From: a virus
DNA length: 64,000 nt
Virus record (IMG/VR): IMGVR_UViG_3300017917_003822
Coordinates: 142,630-206,629 of that record
Strand: one strand, 5' to 3'
The position numbers and the translations under genes were made by a program. The notes below the pieces were generated by a model. The model was not told the origin of the DNA and searched no databases. It was given only the letters and a program-made list of their open reading frames with translations. Positions 8,047-60,524 of this stretch are shown here, piece after piece; the first letter of the stretch is position 1; every line of letters begins with the position of its first letter.

Positions 8047-9504
8047 ATGTCAGGTAGAAAAATACTTAACTTTTTCTCTTTTCTAAACGAAGCTAAAAGT
8101 GAAACCACAAAGGTTATTGTTCTAACAGGTAATGTTAAGGGTAGTAAAACCTCAAGTTCATTTATGGAGGAGTGCAAGAAAAGAGGGATTGAATGCCACG
8201 TTGTTGATGTAAACGATGCAACATTGGAAAAAGTTTATAATGGGCACCTATTAAAAACTGAGGAGGAACAAATATTAATAGAACCAAACTCAACGGTTAT
8301 AGTTCCTAGAAGAGGAGTATTAGAAAACTCCCACACAAAGCAAATACTCCTTTCTTTGGAGGAAGCTAGATATTTCACAGTAAACACTCTGGAATCTATG
8401 GAGATGTGTGAAAATAAGTTCATTACATCTCAAATAATGGAAGAACATAATTTACCCGTACCTAGATATTCCTTAGTACCAAATGAGGATTTCTTGGATA
8501 AGGCTCTTGAAGCTGTTGGAGGTAAATTCCCTGTTGTGATGAAGTTACTTTCGGGAACCCAAGGTATCGGTGTTTCTATTGTTGATTCCTATGCATCACT
8601 GAAATCTGTTTATCAAACAATCAGAAAACTTGATGACACCAATGAGATATTGATACAGGAAAAAATAGATTCCAAATCTGATCTTAGAATACAGGTTATT
8701 GTTAAGAAATTCGACCCATTAAATGCAGGTAAAGATAACTGTATAATTCTCGGATCTATGAAAAGAGAGGCGGTGGAGAAAGATTTTAGGACTAATTATT
8801 CATTAGGTGGTAAAGTTTCTAAATTTGACATTCCGGAGGAATTGGTTGATATAGCTTGCAAAGCAGCAAATGCAGTTGGATGTCATTGGTGTGGTGTTGA
8901 TATTATGATAGATGAAAAAACACAAAAACCCTATATATTGGAGGTCAATTCTTCACCAGGGACCGAGGGTATATCCAAAGCTATAGGTAAACCTATTGTT
9001 GATGATGTTCTTGATTACATTCTGGATAAAGAAAATTGGGCATTTTCAACACTTGAAGTTGGATATTTAGAAAATGTCAATATACCAGGAATTGGTTATA
9101 TGGTAGCTAAATTTGATACTGGGAATGGATCTAAATCTTGCACACTCCATGCTGATGAGGTTGAGGAGAAGGATGACAAACTTATTTGGAAAGTTGGTGA
9201 CAAAAAATTCGTAAATGATATCGTTGGATATTCTGATGCTGAAATCGGTAAGGATATTCACACTAGACCTATGATAGAGATGGACGTTGTTATCAACGGA
9301 GTTACTATACCAAAGGTAAAAATTTCGCCGACCGACAGAACTGATAAAAGTACACCATTCTTAGCAAATAGAGCTTTTATGAGAAAGGCTGGTTTAATAG
9401 TTAATCCACACAAGGCATTTGTTATTAGTGATGAGCCAGAAACTAAATACGAAGTTGGTAAAGCTAAAGGAGAACCTCATGCAGGAATAGAATTTGAAAA
9501 ATAA
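8047..9504 (+). CDS. RimK-like ATP-grasp ligase fused to RimB-type (DUF785) domain, with N-terminal packaging-like tag
   Basis: A two-domain protein of 485 residues. Residues about 20-325 form a RimK-type ATP-grasp ligase (PVVMKLLSGTQGIGVSIVDS, then CGVDIMIDE and YILEVNSSPG, the metal/ATP site). RimK adds glutamates to the C-terminus of ribosomal protein S6 in bacteria. Residues about 335-470 match the RimB/DUF785 aspartic-protease-like family, with AKFDTGNGSKSCTLHAD in place of the usual AKIDTGA-type motif. The first 17 residues (MSGRKILNFFSFLNEA) have the tag shared by several proteins here and a prohead-protease-like LNE|A site. Opposing ligase and peptidase activities in one chain suggest editing or trimming of a Glu tail. 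The substrate is unknown. Confidence 0.82.
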   Translation: MSGRKILNFFSFLNEAKSETTKVIVLTGNVKGSKTSSSFMEECKKRGIECHVVDVNDATLEKVYNGHLLKTEEEQILIEPNSTVIVPRRGVLENSHTKQILLSLEEARYFTVNTLESMEMCENKFITSQIMEEHNLPVPRYSLVPNEDFLDKALEAVGGKFPVVMKLLSGTQGIGVSIVDSYASLKSVYQTIRKLDDTNEILIQEKIDSKSDLRIQVIVKKFDPLNAGKDNCIILGSMKREAVEKDFRTNYSLGGKVSKFDIPEELVDIACKAANAVGCHWCGVDIMIDEKTQKPYILEVNSSPGTEGISKAIGKPIVDDVLDYILDKENWAFSTLEVGYLENVNIPGIGYMVAKFDTGNGSKSCTLHADEVEEKDDKLIWKVGDKKFVNDIVGYSDAEIGKDIHTRPMIEMDVVINGVTIPKVKISPTDRTDKSTPFLANRAFMRKAGLIVNPHKAFVISDEPETKYEVGKAKGEPHAGIEFEK

Positions 9505-9513
9505 TAAAAAAAC

Positions 9514-9726
9514 ATGGAAAATTTAAAACCGTTCAAACAAGTAAATGAATCTGAGCAGTCAGAAAAGACTGAAAAAATACAGGTGCTTCTATCTAAGGAA
9601 GATTTAACTGACTTAGGTAGAAAAATTTCTAAGGAAGCTCTTGCTAAGGGAGAAGCACCAGTTTCAGTTTCTCATTATGTGAGAAAGCTTATCAGAAAAA
9701 ATCTTGGTAAAACTACTACAGATTAA
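9514..9726 (+). CDS. Small tagged protein with ribbon-helix-helix-like region
   Basis: The 70-residue protein starts with a tag-like segment (MENLKPFKQVNESE, possible cleavage at VNE|S). The remainder, from KIQVLLSKEDLTDLG to SVSHYVRKLIRKNL, has the strand then two helices of ribbon-helix-helix DNA-binding proteins. It could be a packaged DNA-binding protein. It follows the RimK-RimB gene by 9 nt and ends in a terminator. Confidence 0.6.
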   Translation: MENLKPFKQVNESEQSEKTEKIQVLLSKEDLTDLGRKISKEALAKGEAPVSVSHYVRKLIRKNLGKTTTD

Positions 9727-10049
9727 TTCGAAGAAAGAAATTCAGAATAACTAAGTACCCTGCGGATTCCCTCCGGCGGGGTATTTTTTTGTTCCTCGTC
9801 TGAGTCGACATCTTCCGTTTGGTCTTCAACCTCACCCTGATTTGTTTCTTCCTGGTCCGCATCATCGATGTCTGATTGTGATTCTTCTTCCGTCGATGTT
9901 TCCTCTGTGTCTACATCAACACCAGCTTCAAAATCTGTTGTTTCTTGATCAGTTTCGTCTTGGTTATTCCATGTACCTTCACCTTCACTTCTTTCTAATT
10001 CAGAATTTAATGAATTCTGAGGAGTTTCTAATTCGTCGTTTTCGAACAT
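9723..10049 (-). CDS. Highly acidic protein with C-terminal packaging-like tag
   Basis: 108 residues, dominated by Asp/Glu/Thr/Ser/Gln, with no hydrophobic core and probably disordered. The last residues (RRVLSYSEFLSSN) repeat at the C-terminus the motif other proteins carry at the N-terminus. A GATATATA late-type element lies 28 nt upstream on the minus strand. The gene converges on 9514-9726, overlapping its stop codon by 4 nt. Acidic tagged proteins of this size recall T4 scaffold-core proteins, but no homology is claimed. Confidence 0.65.
   Translation of the reverse strand: MFENDELETPQNSLNSELERSEGEGTWNNQDETDQETTDFEAGVDVDTEETSTEEESQSDIDDADQEETNQGEVEDQTEDVDSDEEQKNTPPEGIRRVLSYSEFLSSN
9756..9790 (+). 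terminator. Rho-independent terminator embedded in the antisense gene
   Basis: An 8-bp stem TACCCTGC/GCGGGGTA (9756-9763 with 9776-9783) around a 12-nt loop, followed by seven T residues. It ends the plus-strand unit closing at 9726 and lies wholly inside the coding sequence of the minus-strand gene 9723-10049. Confidence 0.65.
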
Positions 10050-10077
10050 AATATTAATATTTAAAAAGTTTATGAAA

Positions 10078-10085
10078 TATATATC
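10078..10085 (-). promoter_or_regulatory. Late-type promoter element (GATATATA)
   Basis: On the minus strand GATATATA lies 28 nt before the ATG at 10049. It is one of about fifteen such elements found 20-50 nt before genes in this window; compare the T4 late element TATAAATA. Confidence 0.45.
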
Positions 10086-10087
10086 AC

Positions 10088-10408
10088 ATGAGAAAAATAT
10101 TAGAATTCGATGATTATCTGGAGGATGATCTCGATCTTAATGACTTTGAAAAATCCCAAATAAGAACCTGGATAGGAAAATATGAGAGGTATTTCAATTT
10201 TCATGACAGCGGAAATTTCATAGATTCAATAGATCAAATAACAAAAGATGCTGTCCAGCAGCTTGGTATAGACAAAAGTAAAACTGATGCCGTCCAGGAT
10301 TATCTGGAGAGTTTATATGATCTTTCGGATGGGCTTTCCGTTATTATGGCACCCGGACCAGAAATAATTCAAACTGGAATCGATCAGGTTCAAAGATTCC
10401 AATATTAA
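10088..10408 (+). CDS. Small acidic protein with N-terminal packaging-like tag
   Basis: 106 residues starting MRKILEFDDYLEDDL, a member of the tag family (K-I-L-x-F-x-x-Y/F). The rest is acidic and helical, with no known motif. It is divergent from the acidic gene 9723-10049; the two starts are 38 nt apart. A scaffold-like or packaged role is inferred only from the tag. Confidence 0.65.
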   Translation: MRKILEFDDYLEDDLDLNDFEKSQIRTWIGKYERYFNFHDSGNFIDSIDQITKDAVQQLGIDKSKTDAVQDYLESLYDLSDGLSVIMAPGPEIIQTGIDQVQRFQY

Positions 10409-10409
10409 A

Positions 10410-10441
10410 TTGAAACTTTTTTTTAAGCTCGTCTATAAATC
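10410..10441 (+). promoter_or_regulatory. Candidate middle/late promoter for the TROVE-like gene
   Basis: TTGAAA (10410-10415), an 18-nt spacer, then TATAAATC (10434-10441), 19 nt before the ATG. The TTGAAACT box at this spacing also occurs at 30233 and 36601. The second element is also close to the T4-type late motif, so the class is ambiguous. Confidence 0.4.
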
Positions 10442-10460
10442 ATAAATAATCGAGATATTT

Positions 10461-11885
10461 ATGGACTTACTTTCAGCTTTACAACAAGAGAATACCGTAA
10501 CCGAGAATGGTATGGTGACTAACTCTAGCTCTCTGAAAAATACACTAGATCTTTTCTTTAGAATAGGTGCTTTGAGAGCAGCGGACCAACAGGATATAGT
10601 AAGACAATTTACTCTAGCTTTTGATGAGTCTCCTCAGGATGCTCTTAGAATCTTATTCTGGGCAAGAGATGTGAGAGGTGGTGCTGGTGAAAGAAGAGTT
10701 TTTAGAATCTGTATGTCTCACTTGGCTGAGAGCAATCCACAATCTCTGATTAAAAATTTACACCTAATCCCAGAATACGGTAGATGGGACGATCTGCTTG
10801 TTTTCGCAGGGACTAAGGTTGAGGATGATGCTTTCGACATAATTAAGACCGCATTATATAGTGCTGATAGACTTTGTGCCAAATGGATGCCAAGAAAAGG
10901 AACCGTTTCCAATGCACTCAGAAAGTATTTGGGGCTAACTCCGAAGGAATATAGAAAACTTCTTGTCGAAACCACTGATGTTGTTGAGCAAAAAATGTGT
11001 TCCAATAAATTCAACGAAATCGATTATTCAAAAGTTCCTTCACTTGCTGCCGCTAGATACCAGGCCGCATTTATTAAGAAGGATTCTGATAGATACACCG
11101 AATACTTATTAGAGCTGCGAAAACCAGAAGGTGAAAAAACAGCTAAGATTAATGCTTCCGCGGTCTACCCATATGATGTTGTCAAATCTCTAAACAGAGG
11201 AGTTTGGGAGGTTGCAAATGAACAATGGAATGCACTGCCTAATTATATGGAAGGATCTAGTGAGATGGTACTTCCGGTTGTTGATGTCTCTGGTTCAATG
11301 ACGTCTCCCGTAAGTAGAGGAGGTACACTTAGCTGTATGGACGTTGCTGTTTCATTGGGTCTTTATATTTCGGAAAGAAATGATGGTCCTTTTAAAGATC
11401 ATTTCATTACCTTCTCTGAAACTCCAGAATTACAAAAACTTGGTGGTAATTTAAAGGAAAGGTATTTACAACTGCGATCATCTGAATGGGGAATGAGTAC
11501 TAATTTGATCTCCGTATTTGATCTTATTTTGAATCAAGCAACCAAACATAATGTTCCACAGAACAACATGCCAACCAAAATTCTAATTCTTTCTGACATG
11601 GAATTCAACGAGGCGATAGAAGACGGTGAAAGTGTTTCGGCTATAAAAGCAATCAGATCTAAATATGATGCTGCTGGATATAAAACACCTGACGTAATAT
11701 TCTGGAATATACAAAGCAGAAGAGGAAATAATATACCGGTCAGATTCGATGAGAGAGGAACTGCTTTAATCTCAGGATTCTCACCTTCCATTATGAAGTC
11801 ACTACTTAATGGAAAATCGATTAGTCCTATGGATATCATGTACGAAACTATAAATTCACCTAGATATGAAAGTATTAAGGCCTGA
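10461..11885 (+). CDS. Ro60-like TROVE/DUF2828 protein with von Willebrand A domain
   Basis: The 474-residue product has a helical-repeat module typical of DUF2828/TROVE proteins (ARDVRGGAGERRVF; IPEYGRWDDLLVF; AKWMPRKG) followed by a VWA domain with a MIDAS-type DVSGSM motif, later Thr and DMEF positions. Ro60 is a ring-shaped RNA-binding protein of the same architecture that binds Y RNAs and misfolded RNAs, and bacterial versions act in RNA quality control and stress. A phage homologue might shield or sort RNA in the infected cell. It overlaps the next ORF by 20 nt. A short structured stretch at 12151-12309 is a possible but unproven RNA partner. Confidence 0.78.
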   Translation: MDLLSALQQENTVTENGMVTNSSSLKNTLDLFFRIGALRAADQQDIVRQFTLAFDESPQDALRILFWARDVRGGAGERRVFRICMSHLAESNPQSLIKNLHLIPEYGRWDDLLVFAGTKVEDDAFDIIKTALYSADRLCAKWMPRKGTVSNALRKYLGLTPKEYRKLLVETTDVVEQKMCSNKFNEIDYSKVPSLAAARYQAAFIKKDSDRYTEYLLELRKPEGEKTAKINASAVYPYDVVKSLNRGVWEVANEQWNALPNYMEGSSEMVLPVVDVSGSMTSPVSRGGTLSCMDVAVSLGLYISERNDGPFKDHFITFSETPELQKLGGNLKERYLQLRSSEWGMSTNLISVFDLILNQATKHNVPQNNMPTKILILSDMEFNEAIEDGESVSAIKAIRSKYDAAGYKTPDVIFWNIQSRRGNNIPVRFDERGTALISGFSPSIMKSLLNGKSISPMDIMYETINSPRYESIKA

Positions 11886-12129
11886 AGCTAGTGAATGTAT
11901 AAGAGGCGAATCTCTTATTGATGCACTCCTAGATGATGCTGTCATCCAGGCATATAATATAACCGATGATGAGTATAATAAAATCTGTAGGGAAGCATCG
12001 ACTGAGGAACTAGATGATTTTTTAGATCCAGTATTTTCATCATCAGGGGTTACATTTTCATCAAGGAAAAAAGGATTAAAAATAAGAAATAAATATATCG
12101 ATTATTATCGAAACATTTTTTCAAATTAG
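11866..12129 (+). CDS. Hypothetical protein coupled to the TROVE-like gene
   Basis: 87 residues, overlapping the 3' end of the TROVE-like gene by 20 nt. Acidic N-terminal two thirds, basic C-terminus (SSRKKGLKIRNKYIDYYRN). No motif was recognised. The overlap suggests joint expression and perhaps a joint role. Confidence 0.65.
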   Translation: MKVLRPEASECIRGESLIDALLDDAVIQAYNITDDEYNKICREASTEELDDFLDPVFSSSGVTFSSRKKGLKIRNKYIDYYRNIFSN

Positions 12130-12142
12130 GTATATAATATTA

Positions 12143-12150
12143 TATAAATA
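12143..12150 (+). promoter_or_regulatory. T4-type late promoter element TATAAATA
   Basis: An exact TATAAATA, the T4 late promoter -10 element, lies 30 nt before the short ORF at 12181. A second AT-rich copy (TATATAAT) lies just upstream at 12131. Confidence 0.5.
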
Positions 12151-12309: not shown

Positions 12310-12311
12310 TA

Positions 12312-12340
12312 AACCCGGTTCCAACAGGACCGGGTTTTTA
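12312..12340 (+). terminator. Strong rho-independent terminator
   Basis: AACCCGGT/ACCGGGTT stem with a 9-nt loop, followed by TTTTTA-TTT. It separates the TROVE-like unit from the early promoter at 12364. Confidence 0.85.
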
Positions 12341-12363
12341 TTTGATCGTAAAAATCATAAATA

Positions 12364-12396
12364 TTTTTTTTAATCCGAGGTACTTTCTTATATTTG
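12364..12396 (+). promoter_or_regulatory. Bacteroidota-type early promoter
   Basis: T8 tract, AATCCG, total 17-nt spacer, then TATATTTG (12389-12396), 24 nt before the ATG at 12421. It shares the TTTTTTTAATCCG block with the copy at 15455. Confidence 0.8.
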
Positions 12397-14422: not shown

Positions 14423-14893
14423 GGGGCTGACCAGGTATTGATTGGCAGAATTGGTTCTTTGAGATGCAGGCAGAGTTAGTATTGGAAACTCTTTAATAAC
14501 CTATACAAAGCTTTAAACGGCAAAACAAATGTTTGGGATGCTATCAACGCGTTTGGTGCTCCCGTAGCTGAAGTTGAGTACGCAGTAGCTGCTTAACCTC
14601 CGGGCCTCACTTGCCTAGAAACAGAAAGGTGAAAGAAAATCCAGATGGCTCCCTTAATAGTCTTGGCTGACCAAGAGCATCTGACCGTAATCGGTCTATA
14701 CAGGGGGCGAAAGAGTGCGGGTAGCAGGGGCAGGCCCGTCTAAAATAACTAGTTGCCGACCAGGTTGTTTGGAAGTTTGGTTCCCACATATATCAAATTT
14801 CATATTTTGCTAATTTAGAAAAATTAGCTAAGCCTGTGAATGAGTCCTTAGGGTTAACTGAGCAAGACGGCGGTTCGATTCCGCCCAGTTCCA
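14423..14893 (+). ncRNA. ssrA: Transfer-messenger RNA (tmRNA), phage-encoded
   Basis: The 5' GGGGCUG pairs with 3' CAGUUCC (14886-14892) to form a tRNA-Ala-like acceptor with a G3-U70 pair and discriminator A at 14893. CCA is not encoded. The T arm is GGCGG-TTCGATT-CCGCC (14873-14885 region). A second long-range helix joins GCAGGC (near 14466) to GCCTGT (near 14833). A tag reading frame starts at GGC 14519 (GKTN...) and ends EVEYAVAA-stop at 14596, 25 codons. GC-rich pseudoknot-like segments fill 14597-14800. tmRNA rescues stalled ribosomes and tags the nascent chain for proteolysis. The length (471 nt) and tag are longer than usual. A terminator follows. Confidence 0.93.
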
Positions 14894-14897
14894 CTGA

Positions 14898-29685: not shown

Positions 29686-29694
29686 GATATATAA
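29686..29694 (+). promoter_or_regulatory. Late-type promoter element (GATATATAA)
   Basis: Lies 20 nt before the ATG at 29715. Confidence 0.5.
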
Positions 29695-29714: not shown

Positions 29715-30176
29715 ATGGAAAACAAAATAGCTTCATTTGAAGAGTTTAAAAAAAGAGCCGCAAACGTTACTGAAGAAAATGCAGAGATGGCTCAGGATAA
29801 TCATCAACACGAGGGGAACGACCACGAAGGTCATCAACACTATATGTTCTTTCAAAATCTAGCATCAATTAAGCATCACATTGAGGAGATTCTAAAAATG
29901 AATCCAGATCAGATAGATGCTTTATTAAAAGATGGACACGATTGGGCATCTGATCATATTGCAACTTCCAAAGATGATATTCAAGAAGTTGCTGAGTGGC
30001 TTAGAAATGAAACTGAAGGAGCACACGATAATCACGATGAAGAGGAGGAGGTTGAAACTTCGGTAGTTATCGAAACACCAGAGGGTGGAGAGGAAGAAGA
30101 GAGCGACGAAGAGGAGGAAGACGATGATGAAGAGGAAGAGACTGAGGAAGAGGAATCAGAGGAGGAAGAAGGGTAA
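29715..30176 (+). CDS. His- and Glu-rich acidic protein with N-terminal packaging-like tag
   Basis: 153 residues. It starts MENKIASFEEFKKRA, a tag-family segment without an obvious cleavage site. A His-rich stretch (DNHQHEGNDHEGHQH) and a helical middle are followed by a C-terminal 50 residues of almost only Glu/Asp. It may be a packaged, scaffold-like or metal-binding protein. Own late-type element and terminator. Confidence 0.7.
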   Translation: MENKIASFEEFKKRAANVTEENAEMAQDNHQHEGNDHEGHQHYMFFQNLASIKHHIEEILKMNPDQIDALLKDGHDWASDHIATSKDDIQEVAEWLRNETEGAHDNHDEEEEVETSVVIETPEGGEEEESDEEEEDDDEEEETEEEESEEEEG

Positions 30177-44461: not shown

Positions 44462-44967
44462 TGAAGAATCAATTTGATGATGCATTCTACCCTCTAATAT
44501 GGGCACACGTACAACAATATCAAAGGTGCGTCAGTGAATACGGGGGGAAGGAAAGAATAACAAAAAAGGTCAAGGAGTCATTAAACTCGTGTGTTCAGAA
44601 ATGGTCAGATTTACCAGCAACAATGGCTTCCTCCAGCGTTATTGAATTCTTTAATTCAAAATTTCCTCATCTCGATCCTGCCAAGATAACGTGGCACCAG
44701 AAATACCTTGTTGGCAGAGATGATAAAAAGAGAGGGATGATAGTGTGGGAACACACAACCCCATTAAATATACTTCTCAAGGAACTGATAACAAAGAAAA
44801 ATCAGAGGGAGATAAATGAATGTATGAATTCATATTCGGGGGTTTGTTTAATTACCAGGGAGGAGGATGATAGGTTAAATGCTAGTGGATTTAGATGTGT
44901 AAGGCCTGGAGGCTGGGAAAAATGCTACAGTGATTGTGGGATTGAAGTCATCAAGTTGGATATATAA
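44461..44967 (+). CDS. Hypothetical protein
   Basis: 168 residues, helical N-terminus, with several Cys in the C-terminal half (GVCLITREEDDRLNASGFRC, GWEKCYSDCGIEVI). The C-terminus resembles small nucleic-acid-binding domains, but this is too weak to name. Confidence 0.65.
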   Translation: MKNQFDDAFYPLIWAHVQQYQRCVSEYGGKERITKKVKESLNSCVQKWSDLPATMASSSVIEFFNSKFPHLDPAKITWHQKYLVGRDDKKRGMIVWEHTTPLNILLKELITKKNQREINECMNSYSGVCLITREEDDRLNASGFRCVRPGGWEKCYSDCGIEVIKLDI

Positions 44968-44987: not shown

Positions 44988-45359
44988 ATGGAACACATTT
45001 TACCATACGAAGCAATCAACGAAGGTGCAGCAGCACTCCCAGCGATGCCTTCTTTTCTCAAATCAGCTGGAGCTAAACCTACATATGTTCAATACGGAGG
45101 TCCGAGAAAAACAAATCAACCACCAAATGCCTGGGAACTAAGGGTACCAGCACCATCCGGGGTTAGCAAGGAAGAATGGGTAATTACTTTCTTTCCGGAC
45201 GGATCTTTTAACACAGGGGCAGGATCACAAAAGAATTTTTTAAGAAGTAGCGGTGAATGGAAAGCTGATGCATCATCGGATTTTATTTTCGGAACTAAAG
45301 CTATCAAGGGGGTTTCTATGAAATTCAACTCGTATATGAGATTGACTCCACTAAATTAA
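44988..45359 (+). CDS. Small protein with N-terminal packaging-like tag
   Basis: 123 residues. It starts MEHILPYEAINEGAAALP, with a possible prohead-protease site INE|G 12 residues in. The rest is Gly/Ser/Phe-rich and beta-like (WVITFFPDGSFNTGAG). No known domain. It is followed by a terminator. Confidence 0.65.
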   Translation: MEHILPYEAINEGAAALPAMPSFLKSAGAKPTYVQYGGPRKTNQPPNAWELRVPAPSGVSKEEWVITFFPDGSFNTGAGSQKNFLRSSGEWKADASSDFIFGTKAIKGVSMKFNSYMRLTPLN

Positions 45360-45446: not shown

Positions 45447-46583
45447 GTGAGCACATCTAGACCATTTGCATACAATCCAGGAACAGGGATAACAGGAACC
45501 ATTCAGGTAGGGAACTTGGCAGTTGGGTATCCGACGGCTGGATTTGCTGCAACTGGATTGGAGTGGTGGAATGGTCCGGATGAGGATCTTGGATACGTGA
45601 TTGCACAGTCAGTTCCCGATGATAGCCAACCAACTCCTCTACCGGAGACAGCTTCAGTTGGATTCTTTAGGTCCGACGATCTATCGGACCCTTCATTCAT
45701 TAGTCTATCTAACGTTATAGCTGGGCTTTCTGGTGCTGGTCCATTTCTCTCAGCATCAAGCGCAAAATCTTGGTTGAATTCAAATGGATACTGGACATCA
45801 TATCCGGAGATAACGACAACTACAACAACCACTTTGCCGCCAACGACAACCACGAGCACCACAACGACAACAAGTACAACCAGTACCACTACAATAGCTC
45901 CTGGTATAGTTACTGATAATTTATTCATGAAGCTTGATGCTAGCAATTACACATCAGGAACTTGGAACGATGAGACAGGAAATGGTAATAATGCAACCAT
46001 AAATGGGGCAACTTGGCAATCAACGGATGGCGGTATCTTTGATTTTGATGGATCCAATGACACCATAAGTATACCGGACAACTCAAGTTTAAGATTAAGC
46101 ACGACGACACAAAAAACGATCCAAGTGTGGGTTAAATTTGATGCTTTAGGTGGATTAAATCAACAAATCCCAGTATTCGGTAAATTATCATCCTCCTTTA
46201 ATTTTGATGGTTATTGGGGAGGTCTTTTTTCAAATGCGGGTGCTATTAGATGTGTTACGAACGGAGCAGCAGTTCAGAAAATCAGCAACTCCATATTAAC
46301 GGTTAACATAAACACCTGGTATCTCTTTACGTTTATATCTCAAATAACATTCGTCTCAAATACGACCAAGGTCTATATCAACGAAACTGAGTACATAACA
46401 GCTTCTCATGGAAATGACACTTATAACGAGTCTAATCCGCTCTATCTAGGTTGGATAGGATCCGGAGTAGGTTCACTATATCTAAATGGTAAAATTGGTG
46501 CATGTTATTTCTATACTAAGGGTCTTTCAACAGCGGAGATAAGCACTAACTTTAATGCAACAAAATCTAAATACGGATTATAA
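45447..46583 (+). CDS. Structural/fibre protein: N-terminal attachment module, Thr-rich linker, LamG-like domain
   Basis: 378 residues from GTG 45447. Residues 1-118 form a module (FAYNPGTGITGTIQVG, WWNGPDEDLGYVI, SNGYWTSYPE) that recurs in the minus-strand gene at 50633. Then a linker of about 30 almost only Thr/Ser residues, then a concanavalin/LamG-like domain (LFMKLDASNYTSGTWNDETG; FDFDGSNDTISIP) of the kind that binds carbohydrate. Likely a virion surface or receptor-binding protein. The Thr/Ser linker is a good target for O-glycosylation by the enzymes at 24.8-29 kb, which is an inference. Confidence 0.75.
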   Translation: MSTSRPFAYNPGTGITGTIQVGNLAVGYPTAGFAATGLEWWNGPDEDLGYVIAQSVPDDSQPTPLPETASVGFFRSDDLSDPSFISLSNVIAGLSGAGPFLSASSAKSWLNSNGYWTSYPEITTTTTTTLPPTTTTSTTTTTSTTSTTTIAPGIVTDNLFMKLDASNYTSGTWNDETGNGNNATINGATWQSTDGGIFDFDGSNDTISIPDNSSLRLSTTTQKTIQVWVKFDALGGLNQQIPVFGKLSSSFNFDGYWGGLFSNAGAIRCVTNGAAVQKISNSILTVNINTWYLFTFISQITFVSNTTKVYINETEYITASHGNDTYNESNPLYLGWIGSGVGSLYLNGKIGACYFYTKGLSTAEISTNFNATKSKYGL

Positions 46584-46586
46584 GAA

Positions 46587-48260
46587 ATGAGTAACACTAT
46601 AAAATATGATGCATCATCGGTAATCGGAAATTCCATAAAATCTGGGAATTTTAATATCGGTGTAAATAATACACCAGTTGATCTGTCTGGATTTTATAAT
46701 GGCATTTCACCAATTATTGGAGGTTATACGATTTATATCAATAAAGCTGAAAATGGACCATCAATCTACGCTCCCAAGAACGATACCGAATTGATTGACA
46801 TCGCTAATAAATTGGGTGCAGGGGTATCTACCACAGCAGATGCCCTCAATTGGATAAGATCACAATCAAATATGACGGTCCTGAATTCTAATTACCCCCA
46901 GATTGTAACGAATGGTCTAGCTTTAAACTTGGATGCCGGATTTGTATCTTCCTATCCAAAAACAGGAACTACGTGGACCGATCTGAGCGGGAATGGAATT
47001 AATGGAACTTTAGTTAATGGGCCAACTTTTGATTCGTCAAATTATGGAAGTATTGTATTTGACGGTGTTAATGATGTTAGTACATTACCAATAAATACTT
47101 TTACTAGCGGGTCACCACAAAACGGTACATTTATACTCAAACTTAAAACTCCTCCATTTGATACCACAGCTCAAGTTATTTTTTTTAGAGACGGTGGTTC
47201 AACCGGAAATCTTATTTATTTTTATAGGAATGCTGGTTGGGCAACCAACACTTATGCTTGGTTAATTTATTCTAATGCCGGTGCGAATATTTTATATGAT
47301 GTTTATCTTCCCGATCAATGGTATGAAACCGCGTTAACTTTTGATAGCCAGGGAAATGTGAAAACTTATATTGATGGAGTATTAAGAGATTCGGAAGTTT
47401 GGGATGCTGGTGCAACGTCTTGGAATAGAAGTGGTAGTATTTTACCAAATTTAAGATGTTCGTCCCCAGGTGGTCCGGGAAATATCCAACGATTTATGTA
47501 TTATACTAGGGCTTTAAGTGCTAGTGAAATTTTACAAAACTATAACGCAGGCCTCCAAAGATTTATACCAACAGATGGATTAGTTCTTTCATTAGATGCT
47601 CAAAACACCAATCTTTATGCTACCTCACCAACAACCGCGTATGATGTTAGTGGGAATGATAATAATGGGACTTTAATAAATGGGACTCAATATGTTGCTG
47701 ATGGAGATGGTAGTTGGAGATTTGATGGTGTTGACGATCAAATTACAAATATCGGCACCCTCCCGACATTTTCATTCATTCAAAACACTGGTATATTTAC
47801 AATTTGTGCTTGGGTTAGGTTAACTGATTTATCGGCTCCAAGCTATTTTTTGGGTAATAACGACGGAACCGCATCCAGTAAAGGTTTTTATTTGGGATAT
47901 CAGGGGTCCAGTGGTAGACTTTGGTTATCAATAACATATGGAGTTGGTGGTCAGGCTACGCTAAATTTACAAAGAACCAATTTCTTTTTGGATGATAATT
48001 GGGTGTTTGTTACTGCGGTTGGAAATGGAACAACCTGTCAATTTTACAGAAACGGACAGACATTTTCGACTTCCGGAACATTTGGGACTTTCTCAACGGG
48101 AGATAGCACAAGAACTCTAGGTCTTGGAAGAATAAACAATTTCAATGGTAGTTATTGGGAAGGTAATGTTTCACAAACTCAAATTTACAATCGAGCTCTC
48201 ACTCAAAATGAAATAACAACAATATACAACGCAACAAAATCAAGATATGGAATACAGTAA
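46587..48260 (+). CDS. Structural/fibre protein with two LamG-like domains
   Basis: 557 residues. The first 110 residues resemble the attachment module of the neighbour in outline (TIKYDASSVIGNSIKSGNF; ALNWIRSQSNM). Two LamG-like domains follow, each opening with GLxLxLDA and containing FDGVND/FDGVDD (about residues 110-325 and 330-555). The protein ends in the same NATKSRYGI tail as the gene before (NATKSKYGL), showing duplication. Likely surface adhesin or fibre component. Confidence 0.75.
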   Translation: MSNTIKYDASSVIGNSIKSGNFNIGVNNTPVDLSGFYNGISPIIGGYTIYINKAENGPSIYAPKNDTELIDIANKLGAGVSTTADALNWIRSQSNMTVLNSNYPQIVTNGLALNLDAGFVSSYPKTGTTWTDLSGNGINGTLVNGPTFDSSNYGSIVFDGVNDVSTLPINTFTSGSPQNGTFILKLKTPPFDTTAQVIFFRDGGSTGNLIYFYRNAGWATNTYAWLIYSNAGANILYDVYLPDQWYETALTFDSQGNVKTYIDGVLRDSEVWDAGATSWNRSGSILPNLRCSSPGGPGNIQRFMYYTRALSASEILQNYNAGLQRFIPTDGLVLSLDAQNTNLYATSPTTAYDVSGNDNNGTLINGTQYVADGDGSWRFDGVDDQITNIGTLPTFSFIQNTGIFTICAWVRLTDLSAPSYFLGNNDGTASSKGFYLGYQGSSGRLWLSITYGVGGQATLNLQRTNFFLDDNWVFVTAVGNGTTCQFYRNGQTFSTSGTFGTFSTGDSTRTLGLGRINNFNGSYWEGNVSQTQIYNRALTQNEITTIYNATKSRYGIQ

Positions 48261-48501: not shown

Positions 48502-48530
48502 AAGGATTCATAAATCTGGATATATAAGTC

Positions 48531-49940
48531 ATGAGAAAAAACATACACGACTTTAGCTCTTTTGCTAAGATTTATGAAGCTGGAAATGATATTAATCTTA
48601 TCATCGGAGATTCGATCACACCAATCATTCTTAAAAATTCCAAGTCTCTTGATATTTTAGGAAATGCAGGTTCGGAAAGAACCCTTTGGAAACCCGGTAT
48701 GGGTGTTAAGTGGTTGAAGGAAGCCGTTTCTAGATACCCAGTTACTCCAAATGTTAAAAATCTAGTAATCAATATCGGAACCAATGGAGCTTTTAATCCA
48801 AAGGACGATATTAAAGGCCTAATTCAGGAGGTCAGAAGAGCATTTCCTTCGGCAAGATTATTCGTTGTTCAGGGATCTTGGGGATGGGGATATAATAAAA
48901 ATGTAACTCCAGAAAAAGTTAAAACCTATTACGAGAGATTTAGAAATGAGGGGGTGAATGTGATAGATCCGCCAATCGGAAATGTCAAAGATCCACATAC
49001 AGATCTTCCAATCTACCAAGAAATAGGGAATGCTATAGACAGAGCAATCTCATTGGGCTTACAGAGAGTTTCGCCGGAGGAAACCACTTCAGCAGATCAG
49101 TCTAAAACACAGGCTACTGGAACAATTATTAGCAGATCAGGGGATCCTTACAAATATAAGGTTGAAAATGATCACTGGTTAGCAAAAAGAGAAGATCATT
49201 CCAGATGGTATGAAATAACAGGAAAGGATTTTAAACCAGCATACCAGGTTTCAATAGATATCCTGGACAGTGAAAACCCAAACCTTAGAACACTAGAAGC
49301 ACCAAAGAGATCTAAAAAACCAGACACCGAGGGTGGTCCAGCAACCACTATTCTTCCTGTTGAGAAGGGATCAGATCCGCAAAAGTTAGATCCGGAAGTA
49401 TCTGAAAAATACAATTTTCATTTAATCCCAGATAACAAGGGAACAAATTACAGATCTGCACAATTTCCGCTCGAAATAATGAAACAGATGTATCCCAAGT
49501 ACTCTATAAAGAATGTTATCAGACTTAACGGGGAAGGTAAAGATGGAAGACATCTTAAATCCGATCAATCAGTTTCTATTGCTGATGAAAGAAAGGTATG
49601 TCAGGAAATTGGATGTAACTTCTATGATCTATCAGCAAAAACGGATCAGGATCAGATTAATGAAATACTGTCGAAGGGTAACACTTTGATACATTGTGCT
49701 CATGGGGCAGATAGAACTGGTGGAAATGTTGCTTCGTATTTATATACAAAGAAACCAAATCCAAAATTAACCACAACGGAGGAACTTTGGAAGTACACGA
49801 CACAATATAATGACTGGAATTCATTAGCAATTAAAAAACCAAACACCTTCACTGAGGATGTTTATTTGGAGCAGGCTAAAAAATTCGGAGTTAGAGATCT
49901 GGAGCACGCTCAGGATCTAGCAAAAAAGTATAAACAATAA
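48531..49940 (+). CDS. SGNH hydrolase fused to Cys-phosphatase, with N-terminal packaging-like tag
   Basis: 469 residues. The first 18 (MRKNIHDFSSFAKIYEAG) form a tag with a possible cleavage site IYE|A. Residues about 20-175 are SGNH-like: IIGDSIT with Ser28, INIGTNGAF, and DPHTDL near residue 153. Residues about 290-465 form a dual-specificity/tyrosine-phosphatase domain with IHCAHGADRTGG (Cys about 389, Arg about 395, the CX5R loop). The middle is a charged linker. The family pair (esterase/acetylesterase plus phosphatase) has no known joint role. A packaged effector acting on host cell components is one possibility. Confidence 0.78.
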   Translation: MRKNIHDFSSFAKIYEAGNDINLIIGDSITPIILKNSKSLDILGNAGSERTLWKPGMGVKWLKEAVSRYPVTPNVKNLVINIGTNGAFNPKDDIKGLIQEVRRAFPSARLFVVQGSWGWGYNKNVTPEKVKTYYERFRNEGVNVIDPPIGNVKDPHTDLPIYQEIGNAIDRAISLGLQRVSPEETTSADQSKTQATGTIISRSGDPYKYKVENDHWLAKREDHSRWYEITGKDFKPAYQVSIDILDSENPNLRTLEAPKRSKKPDTEGGPATTILPVEKGSDPQKLDPEVSEKYNFHLIPDNKGTNYRSAQFPLEIMKQMYPKYSIKNVIRLNGEGKDGRHLKSDQSVSIADERKVCQEIGCNFYDLSAKTDQDQINEILSKGNTLIHCAHGADRTGGNVASYLYTKKPNPKLTTTEELWKYTTQYNDWNSLAIKKPNTFTEDVYLEQAKKFGVRDLEHAQDLAKKYKQ

Positions 49941-52296: not shown

Positions 52297-53121
52297 TTAT
52301 TTTAATAAAGAGTAGTACTCCTTAAAGTGTTTGATTCTATCAGCTAAACCAATGGTACCACCATTCACTCTCCTAGTTACCGAAGTAACAACAGCATCGG
52401 TTGCTCCCTGATCGCAGATAGACCAAAGTTTATTAGTATTAAAAAACCAAGCTGCTGAAGCTAGAGGGTATTTAGTAGCAACTAAATCTGGATTTGCAAG
52501 AATGTCATCGTCAACAAATTTATCAAAAGCAGCGTAGTTTGATTTACCTGTTAGTTGGATATAACCTCTACCTCTAAATTTGAAACCGTCTCTAGATGCT
52601 TCGTCACCATTACCCATTCTTCCACCATATACTCTGGCAGCGATTTTTTCTGGCTGTCTTGCATATGATTCATTCAAATTTCCTGGGAAATATTTAGGGA
52701 AGATCTTTTTAAGACCGTCAGCTGAATAGTTCAAATTCTCCTGAACAGCTTTAAATCCACCCGATTCGTGACCACATTGAGCTAAAAAGTGAGCTAATCT
52801 TAATGTGTTAGTGATGCCAAATTTAGCCGCGGTATCTGGAATTTGTGCGATAACAGAATCGGGAATGTGTCCCTTTAGTGCGCTCAATTTGAAAGCGGAT
52901 GGTGGAACTGTAGCTGCCGGAGCTGCTGCAACAGGAGCTGTTCCGAATAATTTAGTCCAAGTTCCAGGTCCAACAATACCATCAGCAGTAAGACCGTTGG
53001 CTGCTTGCCACTCTTTCACTTTAGCCTCAGTACCTGGTCCGAAAGAACCATCTGCGACTAATCCTAATTTCTCCTGGAGTTTTTTAACGTCATCTCCCTT
53101 AGACCCATTTTTTAGTAACAT
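52297..53121 (-). CDS. Endolysin: peptidoglycan-binding domain plus GH19 chitinase/lysozyme domain
   Basis: 274 residues. Residues 1-60 are a PG_binding_1 repeat (LQEKLGLVADGSFGPGTEAKV; GIVGPGTWTKLF). An Ala/Pro linker follows, then a glycoside hydrolase 19 domain (HFLAQCGHESGGF with the catalytic Glu; FRGRGYIQLTGKSNY; RRVNGG). This is a typical modular lysin that cuts the glycan strand. No signal peptide, so it needs a holin or other export route. A late-type element lies 22 nt upstream on the minus strand. Confidence 0.92.
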   Translation of the reverse strand: MLLKNGSKGDDVKKLQEKLGLVADGSFGPGTEAKVKEWQAANGLTADGIVGPGTWTKLFGTAPVAAAPAATVPPSAFKLSALKGHIPDSVIAQIPDTAAKFGITNTLRLAHFLAQCGHESGGFKAVQENLNYSADGLKKIFPKYFPGNLNESYARQPEKIAARVYGGRMGNGDEASRDGFKFRGRGYIQLTGKSNYAAFDKFVDDDILANPDLVATKYPLASAAWFFNTNKLWSICDQGATDAVVTSVTRRVNGGTIGLADRIKHFKEYYSLLK

Positions 53122-55685: not shown

Positions 55686-57080
55686 TTATTTACCTGGGTA
55701 ACCAGTTTCCCTGTGTACTCTTTCAAAAAGTTCTCTCTGTTTGGATTCATTGATGTATTTTGAAAGTTCTCTTACTCTATCAAAATCTCCAGCATCCAAT
55801 GCTTGATCAATTAAAGCCATGATGTCTCTTTTAGCCATGTTAGCGTAATCTTCGTCATCTTGCTGCTGGTTTGCTGGTAATCCTAAATCAGGAGATTCTG
55901 TATCTATACCTGCTACGGAAAGTTCATAATCAGCAGTCTCTTTAGCGACCTCGTCAATTATTTTTTGCATATCAGTCTTAGCCTTTGGATTTTGACTTAG
56001 TATATTAAACATAAGTTCCAAGAATTGTGGCGCAGGTAAAAGCATTAGCTTACCAAAAACATGCTCTCTTAAATTTTCAATCTTATCAACCTCATTAAAT
56101 CCGTTAACAAAATCTCTTAAATCAGCTGCTATTTCTGGACCGTATCTAAGATCCTCGATCTCATCGGCCAAAGAATCTGTGTTTGAAATGATAATCTCTG
56201 CACTTTCCTCATCCTCAGGAATTGCGTTAGCAGCAATTAATTCATAGATTCCTTTTACGGTTTCATGAAGAAGCATAGCAAAATCAGTACCTAAAGCGTA
56301 AATTGTTGGTTTAGTTTGATCGAAAAGATCTTCGGTTTCTTCCTCCGGAAGTTCGTCAGTTCTCATTAATTCATCTAGAATATCTTGAGCTTTCTCCTCA
56401 TTCTCCTTGTTGTTTTCTGGAGTCTCCCATTCAACCTTAACAGATCCAGCAAATCCTGACTTGTCTCTCTCCCACATCTCTTTTTGTACCTCCATTGGGA
56501 TAGTCCAGTCGAAAAATCCTGCTATTTCAGTTATCTTATTTAAGATCTCTCTATACTCTCTTCCCTTATCAGCACCTAGTATTTCCTCCAATCCGTCAGT
56601 AACCTCAGGTAGATTCAGCATAAGTTTTGTATTTTTAGCTTCTCCTTGAGTGATGTTATTAGCTATTTTTCTCTTGTGGATCTCCGAGATGATTCCAGCA
56701 TCTTTCAATTCTTTAAGCTGTGGCATTTCTGGCGGTTCAGCAGGAACATTTTCCATCGTTTTCTTGATCTCATCGTTCTTAGGAAATCTTATCTTCAACT
56801 CAACCTCATCAAGAATTGTTCCGTACATAGCTCTAATAGCTCTTTCAGCTAGTGATTCAAGATCCTTCTCGTGACCTCTTTGAATCTCTCTGGCTTTGAA
56901 TACAAGACTCATGAATTGAGGAATCTCTCTACCGTGTCTTCTCTGAAGCTCTCTGTTTTTTTCTTCAGCTTTTCTCTCAACGTCGGAAAGGTAACTTCCT
57001 TCTTTTCCTCCCTCTCCGGGAATAGCTGGATTGCCTTTTAACGAGGCCTCATCGATTTTTTGTTTAAATGACTTAATCAT
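55686..57080 (-). CDS. Large helical acidic protein with N-terminal packaging-like tag
   Basis: 464 residues. The start MIKSFKQKIDEASLKGN is a tag-family segment with a possible cleavage IDE|A 11 residues in. The rest is Glu-rich and mainly helical, with no catalytic motif recognised. It overlaps the next upstream minus-strand gene by 8 nt. A packaged or core protein is the best guess. Confidence 0.7.
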   Translation of the reverse strand: MIKSFKQKIDEASLKGNPAIPGEGGKEGSYLSDVERKAEEKNRELQRRHGREIPQFMSLVFKAREIQRGHEKDLESLAERAIRAMYGTILDEVELKIRFPKNDEIKKTMENVPAEPPEMPQLKELKDAGIISEIHKRKIANNITQGEAKNTKLMLNLPEVTDGLEEILGADKGREYREILNKITEIAGFFDWTIPMEVQKEMWERDKSGFAGSVKVEWETPENNKENEEKAQDILDELMRTDELPEEETEDLFDQTKPTIYALGTDFAMLLHETVKGIYELIAANAIPEDEESAEIIISNTDSLADEIEDLRYGPEIAADLRDFVNGFNEVDKIENLREHVFGKLMLLPAPQFLELMFNILSQNPKAKTDMQKIIDEVAKETADYELSVAGIDTESPDLGLPANQQQDDEDYANMAKRDIMALIDQALDAGDFDRVRELSKYINESKQRELFERVHRETGYPGK

Positions 57081-57351
57081 CGTATCTTTCTTTTAATTTT
57101 CCAAGATTGAACTCCATTGGAGTTTTATTTTTTCTAAGCTCTTCCATGAATCTCTTCATAACATCCGCAACTTTAGCTTTAGGAGCTGGTTCAACAGATG
57201 GTTTATCTCTCCTAATCGGACTAGGTCTGGAAGGAGTTTTTGATGGAGAAGTTCCGGGTTTTATTGTTGGAGCCGGTTGACCAGGCTTAGTAGCTGGTTG
57301 ATTAGCCGTTTTTGTTGCTAAAAACTCATCAATTTTAGTAATAATCTTCAT
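57073..57351 (-). CDS. Pro/Lys-rich protein with N-terminal packaging-like tag
   Basis: 92 residues. MKIITKIDEFLATK is a tag-family start (IDE|F possible). The centre is a Pro/Thr/Lys-rich disordered stretch and the last 30 residues are helical. It is first gene of the minus-strand unit, with a late-type element 23 nt upstream. Confidence 0.65.
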   Translation of the reverse strand: MKIITKIDEFLATKTANQPATKPGQPAPTIKPGTSPSKTPSRPSPIRRDKPSVEPAPKAKVADVMKRFMEELRKNKTPMEFNLGKLKERYDD

Positions 57352-57371
57352 TAGTATTGATTTTTATTTTG

Positions 57372-57381
57372 AATATATATC
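57372..57381. promoter_or_regulatory. Divergent late-type promoter element (ATATATAT core)
   Basis: AATATATAT on the plus strand and GATATATA on the minus strand overlap here, 20 nt before ATG 57401 (+) and 23 nt before ATG 57351 (-). Confidence 0.5.
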
Positions 57382-57400
57382 GAAAGATAATATTATAGAT

Positions 57401-58978
57401 ATGATGACCAATCAAAGTTTCCGTAGTTTTTTTGAAGCTGCACCGTTAATGGAAAATGTTCAGGCGGCAAAAGACTATTTATTAAAGCAATATGCAGAAA
57501 AAAAGAAGATAAAACCTTCTGAGTTAAGCGATGAGGAAAAGAAGGATATTCTTCTTAATCCAAAATTTATTGAGATCAGAGATCTAGTTGCTAAACAACC
57601 AGGATACACTTTACCCTTCCTGATATTCTACATTGAGCAAAAAGCCCATATGGAAGAGCTTGAAGAAATTCTGGATTACTTAAATAAATTTAAAACTCAG
57701 CTTTCCGAACTTAGCATGCCAGTTGCGGATTTTGCTAAGATCCAACCAACTAAGGATGATCCTAGACCTGGTTACGAACACCTTGGAGATGAGCTTAGAA
57801 ATATCGAGAGAAGAAGAAAGCTTAAGGAGCTTTATAATGAGCTAACCCCAAGAATGAAAAAACAGTTCAATAAAGCATCTAATGAACAAATAGAGGATTT
57901 AACAGCTATTTCGAACCAACTTAAATCACTTCCAGATATCGTTAGTAAGGATGATCTTGATGCGGAGGGTAAACCTAAGGTTCTTAACGCTTGGAAATCT
58001 TTTTCCAGAAATATGAAAAAGTACGACGACACAAGAACTTATCCTGAATATGCGGATGAAAAGGTTGCTTTTGGTGACATAGCAAAGGATGCCCTAGATT
58101 TCATAGAGGGTTGGGGACAAGATGAGGACGCACTTCTTAAAAAACTTAAAGAACTAGGACCTCAAGTTGGGATCCTGTACGCTAAAAAAGGTTATATTGC
58201 GATGTCTGCAAGAACACCGGAGGCCCAAAGGGCAGTGTGTGCGGATACTAACTGGTGTATTAGAACAGATTCTACCTTCTGGAGCTATGGAGGCGGAAGA
58301 ATCCAAATAAACATCATCAACAAAAATCTTCCGGTTACAGATAATCTAAGTCTTATTGGTATCACAATCAATCCGAATGGAACTATTCACACAGATGCAA
58401 CCAGACCAAACAACAGGCTTAGAGATCAGAATGGGAGCACATTCAAAACATACATCGATGCACTTCGTGGGCTTGGTTATCCAGCAGATCTAATTAAGGA
58501 TGTTGAAGATAAATTCCAAAGAGAAGTAGATATTAAGTTAGCTCTGGAACATTACTATAAAGATGGATCCAATCTATCACCAAGAAAAGTCGTAGAATCT
58601 CTAATTACGATGAGCAAGGGATTCCTATCAGGGGTAATGCCTCAGGAAGACTGGGAAAGAATATCCGGTATCGTATCTCAAATTATCTTTGAAGATAAGG
58701 GTCTTACTAAAGGGGCGTTTATGAAGATATTTAAAGAAAATGGTATTTACGTTGAAGCAACATGGAACGTATTCGACTCGTTAATCGGTAAGGATTACAC
58801 AAAAGAGGAGATGAAGGAGATTGGAGACTCAACTAAATCTGGATTGGAAGCAATGGCAGAATTACTTGAGATTGAGGACAGCGGGGCATTAGGGATGAGA
58901 AAATCTGATGTCGATGCAATGAAGGAGGTAGTTTCTAATAAGAAATGGGTTCTTGAGCAGATCTCAAAAAGAATGTAA
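57401..58978 (+). CDS. Large protein with tag-like N-terminus and a WCIRT...Y motif
   Basis: 525 residues. MMTNQSFRSFFEAAPLMENV is tag-like (LME|N or FFE|A possible). Residues about 275-360 hold ADTNWCIRTDSTFWSYGGG and GITINPNGTIHTDA, reminiscent of a motif in uncharacterised phage proteins (WCIAT...Y...). The flanks are helical. The motif could be a catalytic or nucleic-acid-processing site. No family is named with confidence. Confidence 0.65.
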   Translation: MMTNQSFRSFFEAAPLMENVQAAKDYLLKQYAEKKKIKPSELSDEEKKDILLNPKFIEIRDLVAKQPGYTLPFLIFYIEQKAHMEELEEILDYLNKFKTQLSELSMPVADFAKIQPTKDDPRPGYEHLGDELRNIERRRKLKELYNELTPRMKKQFNKASNEQIEDLTAISNQLKSLPDIVSKDDLDAEGKPKVLNAWKSFSRNMKKYDDTRTYPEYADEKVAFGDIAKDALDFIEGWGQDEDALLKKLKELGPQVGILYAKKGYIAMSARTPEAQRAVCADTNWCIRTDSTFWSYGGGRIQINIINKNLPVTDNLSLIGITINPNGTIHTDATRPNNRLRDQNGSTFKTYIDALRGLGYPADLIKDVEDKFQREVDIKLALEHYYKDGSNLSPRKVVESLITMSKGFLSGVMPQEDWERISGIVSQIIFEDKGLTKGAFMKIFKENGIYVEATWNVFDSLIGKDYTKEEMKEIGDSTKSGLEAMAELLEIEDSGALGMRKSDVDAMKEVVSNKKWVLEQISKRM

Positions 58979-58989
58979 ATATATACAAT

Positions 58990-60270
58990 ATGGAAAAAGT
59001 ATTAAGCTATAAAGCTTTCGAATCGGAAGAAATAGAAAACGATTTAAACCCTGAGACAAATCAGGAAGTAGATGAAGCCAGAAGCTGGTATTCTTTAAAT
59101 GATAGAACCAGAGAAATTGCGGAGGCTCTAGATAACACTCAGGAGGGAAGAGATCTTCAAGCAATCGGAGTAAGAATCTACGAGAGAAGATATGACGAAA
59201 TCGTAGTTGAAAGAATTTCTGGCCCTATGGCTAAGGTGGCTTTATTTAAAAATGAAGATGGCGAATATTGCTACGAATACCTTTCAAGTAAGGCTGGTGT
59301 TGAAAGATATAATCTTTCTAAATTCGACACACCAGAAAAATGTTTAAGAGCACTTCTTCTAAGAATCATCAGAAACAATATCCCTGCTGCAATTATTCCT
59401 AAAAAAGATATACCAAATCTGAACTTCAATGAACTAGTCCCTGTTGGTGCTAAATTGGATATGCCACAAATTCTTGCTAGAATGAAGGAGGTTATCGGAG
59501 GTCATGAATTATCGGATCTTGATGTAACTGCAGTAGTTGCTCTACCAACAATTCAGAATCTTGATGATTTAGGTATGGTTGGTAAGGGATCAAAAAATGA
59601 CAGAACGATCATCAATAAAGTCGATCAGATCTCACCAAAATACAGATTCTATTCTAGAGCAACCAAAAGGGTTGGTGAAATCTATGGGGGCTTATTAGCA
59701 ACCATCGTTGGTGTTAATGAAAGAGACCTGGGAGGAACCATGTTTAGCGATCCTTATGAGGTTTGGAGAGTGAACAACTCAAACAGAATGCCACTTAATA
59801 GTGTTAACTTTAGAACTGGAGACAATTCTGTTAAATGTAACATTCAGGATAACGAGATCTTCGGATCTGTTTTTATCGCTATATTCAAGAGAACCTTCAA
59901 GAGAGCCAAGGGTAGATATGAGAAAGAACATTTGATCGAGCCTACGTACTCAATCAGAAGCGATAGAGACAATAAAGTTGAGATTATCAGAGAGTTAAAT
60001 AGCCTACTTAGTGATTACTTTACTCAGGCCGCTGATACTCTTGAAGCAAGCGTTTTCATCGATCCGGGTGAGGAGAACACAGCAATCCACACAAACGCTA
60101 AAGCTCTAATGGTTAAATTTCTATTGAGAAATGGATCAACTCTACTAAAGGGAATAATCGGAGAGAACGACGAGCTACAAGAACTTGTTGATATCACAAC
60201 TAGAGAGGAAGATGTTGATGCATTAACTAAGAGATTAATTAAAGTATCTAGAGCTCTTAGATACGTATAA
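58990..60270 (+). CDS. Large protein with N-terminal packaging-like tag
   Basis: 426 residues. MEKVLSYKAFESEEIEND is a tag-family start. The rest is mixed alpha/beta with no catalytic motif noticed. A short AATATATAC stretch lies 5 nt before the ATG, too close for a normal leader. It is followed 5 nt later by the small zinc-ribbon gene. Confidence 0.68.
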   Translation: MEKVLSYKAFESEEIENDLNPETNQEVDEARSWYSLNDRTREIAEALDNTQEGRDLQAIGVRIYERRYDEIVVERISGPMAKVALFKNEDGEYCYEYLSSKAGVERYNLSKFDTPEKCLRALLLRIIRNNIPAAIIPKKDIPNLNFNELVPVGAKLDMPQILARMKEVIGGHELSDLDVTAVVALPTIQNLDDLGMVGKGSKNDRTIINKVDQISPKYRFYSRATKRVGEIYGGLLATIVGVNERDLGGTMFSDPYEVWRVNNSNRMPLNSVNFRTGDNSVKCNIQDNEIFGSVFIAIFKRTFKRAKGRYEKEHLIEPTYSIRSDRDNKVEIIRELNSLLSDYFTQAADTLEASVFIDPGEENTAIHTNAKALMVKFLLRNGSTLLKGIIGENDELQELVDITTREEDVDALTKRLIKVSRALRYV

Positions 60271-60275
60271 TAAAT

Positions 60276-60524
60276 ATGGAAAATCTACTAGAAAGAAAAA
60301 GACAGGACGTTTGCTCGGGGTGCGGTAAATCCATAGGAGACCCAGAAAAAGAGTGTCCACACTGCGGAGCATTTCCACAGAAGGCTTATCACGAAAGAGC
60401 AGCAGCTAAGACACTTGGGATAGCTAAATGGGTACAGAACTCCCCAGTAATGCAACCTAATCAGAAGCTTAGCGAGGATAAGGATGGATTACAGAACATT
60501 CTATCATTCGACGACTTCAAATAA
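60276..60524 (+). CDS. Small zinc-ribbon protein with C-terminal packaging-like tag
   Basis: 82 residues. A zinc ribbon with VCSGCGKS and CPHCGA at residues about 11-34, a helical middle, and a final LQNILSFDDFK that matches the tag motif but at the C-terminus, as in 9723-10049. May be packaged or a core component. Confidence 0.65.
   Translation: MENLLERKRQDVCSGCGKSIGDPEKECPHCGAFPQKAYHERAAAKTLGIAKWVQNSPVMQPNQKLSEDKDGLQNILSFDDFK

Follow-up and report, generated by a model that had tools for sequence, protein, structure and literature searches.

In phage T4, targeting by the capsid-targeting sequence (CTS) depends on its residues 4 and 7 and processing on its residues 8 and 10, and gp21 cleaves after L/I-x-E (PMC9026906). 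In phage P1, a short N-terminal signal suffices to load DarB into the head (PMC9024508), and in phiKZ and SPN3US an S77-type protease acts on many injected inner-head proteins, which it processes after a short motif whose last residue is E (PMC5694885, PMC9026906). The present analysis concerns a stretch of 64,000 nucleotides (the window), which comprises bases 142,630-206,629 of a 270,629-bp uncultivated phage record (IMG/VR record IMGVR_UViG_3300017917_003822), and a short tag at the ends of proteins encoded there and elsewhere in the record. A preliminary description of the window had noticed this tag on ten named proteins, had likened it to the T4 CTS followed by a gp21-type site, and had read the list as the set of effectors that the phage packages and injects. 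The tag is real and the set is larger than was then reported: about forty otherwise unrelated proteins bear one common short end-tag, which very probably belongs to an expanded packaging system of the T4 CTS type. Since the tag is a close match to the head-loading signal of T4, it probably tells which proteins are carried inside the phage particle.

Comparison with described packaging systems

Like the T4 CTS (MKTYQEFIAE|A, with the bar marking the cut; IPII, IPIII, gp21), the tag is an N-terminal segment of 10-20 residues with a small residue after the E. The aromatics of the targeting positions (Y4 and F7 in T4), three apart near the N-terminus, are present in the tag set, and the columns of the tag profile (first aromatic, aromatic at +3, I/L at +4, N at +5, E at +6) have the T4 CTS spacing. 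Both systems also have an S77 protease whose substrates, predicted ones here, include capsid protein and scaffold. Unlike T4, where a handful of proteins are tagged, there are about 40-70 tagged proteins per genome here, together with the consensus [ILV]NE|[SAG], conserved C-terminal versions of the tag, a protease fused to a scaffold-like region and a different promoter-like box upstream.

A short N-terminal packaging signal, here a predicted one, is shared with P1 DarB, although the N-termini of the P1 Dar proteins have no consensus and no comparable tag set is described in PMC9024508. The S77-type protease and the site ending in E are shared with the inner-head ejection proteins of phiKZ and SPN3US, but the propeptides of the latter are mostly far longer than the T4 CTS. 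In Sphingomonas phage PAU (NC_019521; L183-L193), 15 proteins start with MKT[IL]xxLYE[AS] or a close variant (0.26 expected), among them the annotated scaffold and an internal capsid protein. PAU thus resembles this phage in having a common N-terminal tag, followed in some of the 15 proteins by LNE|[AS], but the tag sequence is different and is not found as a set by the profile of this genome. This points to a lineage-wise co-evolution of tag, protease site and scaffold, with different tags in PAU and perhaps in Lak phages. Near the protease gene of Prevotella phage Lak-A1 (L214-L241), a weaker motif of the MNKNIKxLLES type recurs at N-termini (8 versus 0.5 expected), and the profile of this genome gives a weak signal in this phage (13 versus 6).

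The tag set in this genome and its relatives

Megablast of 20 kb against phages gave no match, and the closest capsid proteins in the phage collection have less than 60% identity; as far as the collections searched show, there is no cultured phage among the close relatives. The host of such phages probably belongs to the Bacteroidota. Gene calling on the whole record (ATG starts, at least 50 residues) gave 353 genes, and 41 curated N-termini carry the tag, 10 of them inside the window. An anchored profile of 12 columns was trained on these 41 tags, from this genome only, with leave-one-out (LOO) scoring. A score of at least 8 was taken as a hit, and the nulls were interior, internal-methionine or shuffled windows; the null for the LOO scores was made of interior windows of the same genome (99th percentile, 7.6). 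The profile was used instead of an unconstrained expectation-maximization motif search, which slid into a generic N-terminal pattern (70% occupancy), and an initial null from the interiors of the capsid-region loci was dropped because every locus repeats the same large proteins.

The genome-wide search gave 42 N-terminal hits in this genome (G000) versus about 3 expected, and 31 of the 41 curated tags retained a score of at least 8 under LOO. Out of sample, the hits in four relatives were 27 in G001 (about 3 expected), 42 in G002 (4.3), 71 in G004 (about 5) and 19 in G007 (about 2). The curated tags are clustered at 49-60 kb of the genome, adjoining the capsid gene, and at 118-123, 138-141, 150-153, 187-203, 219-228, 244-249 and 262-270 kb. 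Furthermore, an untrained T4 rule, [FY]xx[FYW][ILV]xE, was found at 11 N-termini of G000 versus 2.3 expected (p=3e-5) and at 22 of G004 versus 3.4 (p=1e-11), and showed no enrichment in G007 (3 versus 2.3). With no T4 sequence in its training, the profile placed two proteins, which we take from their N-terminal sequences to be IPII and IPIII, within the top five T4 N-termini; a third, presumably IPI by its sequence, ranked 17th with a weak score. Orthologue pairs are split by tag as 148/117/1364, which understates the concordance since many 'one-tagged' pairs are threshold misses.

AT-rich gene starts could yield N-termini rich in I, L, F, Y and K, and individual short motifs are common, with about 3 hits per genome expected; however, it is hardly conceivable that the set arose by chance or as an artefact of gene calling. 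The expected N-terminal hits across the nulls, shuffled and internal-methionine windows included, are 2-6 per genome versus the 19-71 found in the relatives, the frequency in protein interiors is not equal to that at the termini, and the tag is conserved across orthologues. Phage PTm1, treated with the same gene caller and the same profile, had 2 hits versus about 3 expected, none above chance, so composition or gene calling is ruled out as the cause. Cytoplasmic enzymes, at whose termini the preliminary description had considered that the motif might be equally frequent, score only -6.3 to 3.4 (RNase HII, ThyA, RNR, DnaJ, DnaK, gyrase, thioredoxin and others).

Protease, putative cleavage site and scaffold-like region

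A gp21-like protease gene was also looked for, and an S77 protease is present at 46,011-47,960 of the genome (46011, 49805, 50949, 51832, 123632, 127690, 263957 and 265560 are genome coordinates, outside the window numbering). It matches PF03420 (E=3e-8, over the cut-off) and the PHROG head maturation protease (4e-37), and its motifs GE(L/M)xHP and SxR, with the conserved His and Ser, align with T4 gp21. The protease domain, about the first 200 residues, is fused in one reading frame to a long C-terminal scaffold-like part, and the PTm1 homologue, with the same fusion, is annotated as prohead core scaffolding protein and protease.

When tags were picked on the targeting columns only, [ILV]NE was found 4-24 residues past the tag in 16/51 tagged versus 3/266 untagged proteins of this genome (p=1.5e-11), and in 65/218 versus 17/1416 with the five genomes pooled. 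SLNE43|S is invariant in the capsid protein among 28 distinct N-termini compared, and the protease-scaffold has four sites of the [ILV]NE|[SAG] type, at 198, 496, 528 and 575. Being common to tags, shell and scaffold, this motif ties them to one protease, as in T4, and packaging and cleavage of the tagged proteins can be strongly inferred. A conserved [VLI]NES ends the protease domain of 46011-47960 and its relatives, and self-cleavage there could separate the protease from the scaffold-like region.

The nucleotide and RNA enzymes among the tagged proteins would also fit a motif that docks its carriers to another phage compartment or machine (a replication focus, the tail, a transcription complex) and resembles the T4 CTS by convergence. 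Nevertheless, this explanation is very improbable, given that those enzymes of replication and nucleotide metabolism that were checked have no tag, that the spacing is that of the T4 CTS and that the site after the tags is also that of the capsid protein and the scaffold.

In a packaging system of the T4 type, the tag would be a short disordered extension, mostly N-terminal and sometimes C-terminal, whose two aromatics three positions apart would dock it on the prohead's scaffold core, and the shell would then form around the docked carrier. Where an N-terminal tag carries [ILV]xE|[SAG], the gp21-like S77 protease would cut after the E during maturation and release the mature protein within the head. 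Further predicted substrates of this protease are the capsid protein, cut at LNE43|S, and the scaffold, cut at its four sites. The minority of the set that adjoins the capsid gene would probably be core proteins, and the others (glutamate ligase, adenylate kinase, SLT lytic transglycosylase, SGNH/phosphatase, nucleotidyltransferase and many proteins of no recognised function) would probably be cargo delivered with the DNA.

Carriers of the tag and its modularity

The glutamate ligase encoded at window position 8047 matches Pfam RimK (8e-34) and, in the PDB, glutamate ligases (1e-29) and an ATP-dependent zinc protease (4e-5). Its tag is present at 37/37 orthologous loci, and [FY]xx[FY][LI]NE[AS] is found in 22/22 distinct N-termini, with N14 and E15 invariant and the adjacent residues freely variable. 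The ligase homologue of Pelagibacter phage Mosig starts with MQVQPFKNYLEEATG, a clean CTS-like N-terminus, and a distant homologue in Yersinia phage YerA41, for which particle proteomics is published, is annotated as a structural protein.

Most tagged proteins had no match in Pfam or PHROG, against both of which they were searched. Among those of this genome with matches, an adenylate kinase has its Pfam domain from residue 27, past the tag, an SLT lytic transglycosylase is encoded at 265560, and there are weak nucleotidyltransferase and phosphoribosyltransferase matches. In the relatives, a poly(A) polymerase (G001), CHAP, lysozyme, a Tlde1-like L,D-transpeptidase and an RNase_T exonuclease are tagged, and in one relative a signal-peptide-like N-terminus replaces the tag. 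Such a swap, the non-homologous tagged wall enzymes and the presence or absence of the tag on cores of 74% identity point to a modular address label. In contrast with the tagged SLT enzyme, an endolysin-like protein of the window (52297-53121, minus strand), whose N-terminus resembles a peptidoglycan-binding domain, is untagged.

The tagged proteins 49805, 50949 and 51832 adjoin the capsid gene and are conserved in the clade. They are probably core proteins of the prohead, and therefore tagged does not equal effector. These three would agree with a tag that marks structural or core proteins of the head only, binding the scaffold for head building with no delivery of effectors, but this is unlikely for a set that is large, scattered and mostly non-conserved, in which enzymes with no obvious structural role are tagged (adenylate kinase, glutamate ligase, the G001 poly(A) polymerase), as are non-homologous wall enzymes in different genomes.

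The tag also has a C-terminal form, conserved in three or four further protein families. Two of them are in the window, at 9723-10049 on the minus strand (..RVLSYSEFLSSN) and at 60276-60524, and others lie outside it, at 123632 (..LKDYRDWIANK) and 127690 (..SYVDFIKKRKK). Orthologues across relatives retain the C-terminal tag for three of these proteins, and G004 and G007 encode counterparts of the 9723-10049 family that end in the same tag.

Upstream box

Upstream k-mer comparison revealed a box, GATATATA, usually 12-35 bases upstream of the start codon. It precedes 16/51 tagged genes versus 24/302 others in G000 (p=2e-5) and 33/82 versus 40/540 in G004 (p=2e-13), and is enriched before tagged genes in all four relatives. 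Untagged genes with the box include those of the tail sheath, the portal and the protease. The box is a late-promoter candidate of the clade, and since tagged genes and virion structural genes have it in common, the tagged genes are probably expressed late. The likeness to the T4 CTS with a gp21-type site, as first proposed, is borne out by the spacing, the recovery of the presumed IPII and IPIII, the S77 protease, the shared site and the boxes in common with virion genes.

Tagged proteins in the window

The ten open reading frames named in the preliminary description are present, with the N-termini that it quoted (Table 1). Six of their tags are clear by LOO, and those of 57073 and 57401 are weak. 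The tag of 44988 is borderline (p=0.03), but YEAINE|G is present; that of 48531 is weak when taken alone (LOO 3.9), but 11/12 orthologues score at least 8. As a list of effectors, the ten stand only in part: they cover only about one in four of the tagged proteins, two of them are weak, and some tagged proteins elsewhere are core-like. Most of the tagged proteins lie outside the window, and the two C-terminal copies within it had also been overlooked.

Table 1. Tagged genes of the window and the boxes preceding them (window coordinates; LOO, leave-one-out profile score)
Feature	Coordinates	Strand	Tag	LOO	Remarks
GATATATA box, late-promoter candidate	8013..8020	+			before 8047 gene
RimK-like glutamate ligase + RimB-like protease domain	8047..9504	+	MSGRKILNFFSFLNE|A	17.4	tag at residues 1-16
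Small tagged protein	9514..9726	+	MENLKPFKQVNE|S	8.6	VNE|S site
Acidic protein, C-terminal tag	9723..10049	-	..RRVLSYSEFLSSN		C-terminal score 16.1; GATATATA box 10078-10085(-)
Tagged protein	10088..10408	+	MRKILEFDDYLED	12.1	
GATATATA box	29686..29693	+			before 29715 gene
Tagged protein	29715..30176	+	MENKIASFEEFKK	13.1	tag retained in orthologues
GATATATA box	44959..44966	+			before 44988 gene
Tagged protein	44988..45359	+	MEHILPYEAINE|G	5.6	borderline; INE|G site
GATATATA box	48519..48526	+			before 48531 gene
Tagged SGNH-like + phosphatase-like protein	48531..49940	+	MRKNIHDFSSFAKIYE|A		GDS and HCAHGADRTG motifs
Tagged protein	55686..57080	-	MIKSFKQKIDE|AS	9.8	[DNE]EAS conserved, 4 genomes
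Possible tag, weak	57073..57351	-	MKIITKIDEFLA	2.4	TKIDEFL conserved, 4 genomes; GATATATA box 57374-57381(-)
Possible tag, weak	57401..58978	+	MMTNQSFRSFFEA	-1.6	SFxTF largely conserved
Tagged protein	58990..60270	+	MEKVLSYKAFESEE	13.9	
Zinc-ribbon-like protein, C-terminal tag	60276..60524	+	..NILSFDDFK		conserved in 3 relatives, 78% core identity

The orthologues of 10088 in 4 genomes retain ILEF(D/E)D(Y/F) or a near variant. The 48531 protein has weak Pfam matches to phosphatases and GDSL hydrolases, as well as weak fold matches from a search on a low-confidence model. In its orthologues the tag and the SGNH-like half are constant, and the other half is phosphatase-like, unrelated or absent, a case of domain swapping behind a constant N-terminus. 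Residues 1-18 are disordered in the structure model of 57401, and a fold search with this model gave no credible match. The window also contains a phage-encoded tmRNA (14423-14894) with the tag peptide EVEYAVAA.

Evidence against a packaging system and significance

Several observations weigh against packaging and injection of the tagged proteins. No virion proteomics was found for the clade, and packaging, cleavage and injection are predictions from sequence. The [IL]xE site, though enriched in the set, is absent or displaced in many tagged proteins, and the C-terminal tags have none. The tag of 58990 is missing from two orthologues with core identities of 74% and 64%, individual members (57073, 57401, 263957) are uncertain, and the N-terminus of the YerA41 ligase homologue has no obvious T4-like tag. 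Moreover, PTm1 has the protease-scaffold fusion but no such tagged set, and the T4 late promoter TATAAATA was not enriched. Finally, pooling inflates the p-values, since orthologous genomes are not independent of one another, and the per-genome values are to be used.

The mechanism is already known from T4. New are the number of carriers (about 40-70 in the larger genomes), the tags at C-termini and the clade-specific [ILV]NE|[SAG] site that capsid and scaffold have in common with the tags; a literature search, with subscription journals mostly outside its scope, found no description of these features. It seems fairly likely that a clade of uncultivated jumbo phages uses the T4 signal as a general delivery address, at either protein end, for roughly 40-70 proteins in each genome; among these would be metabolic, RNA-modifying and wall-degrading enzymes, exchanged between genomes. 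If this is true, the repertoire would exceed every other signal-defined set of injected phage proteins in the literature found, and would be readable from sequence alone. Injected phage proteins are usually identified singly via proteomics, whereas here a short sequence rule anchored in T4 predicts the cargo of uncultivated jumbo phages. What phages inject besides DNA would become directly testable, dozens of proteins of no recognised function would be candidate host-takeover or counter-defence factors, and injection repertoires may come to be read from genome sequence.

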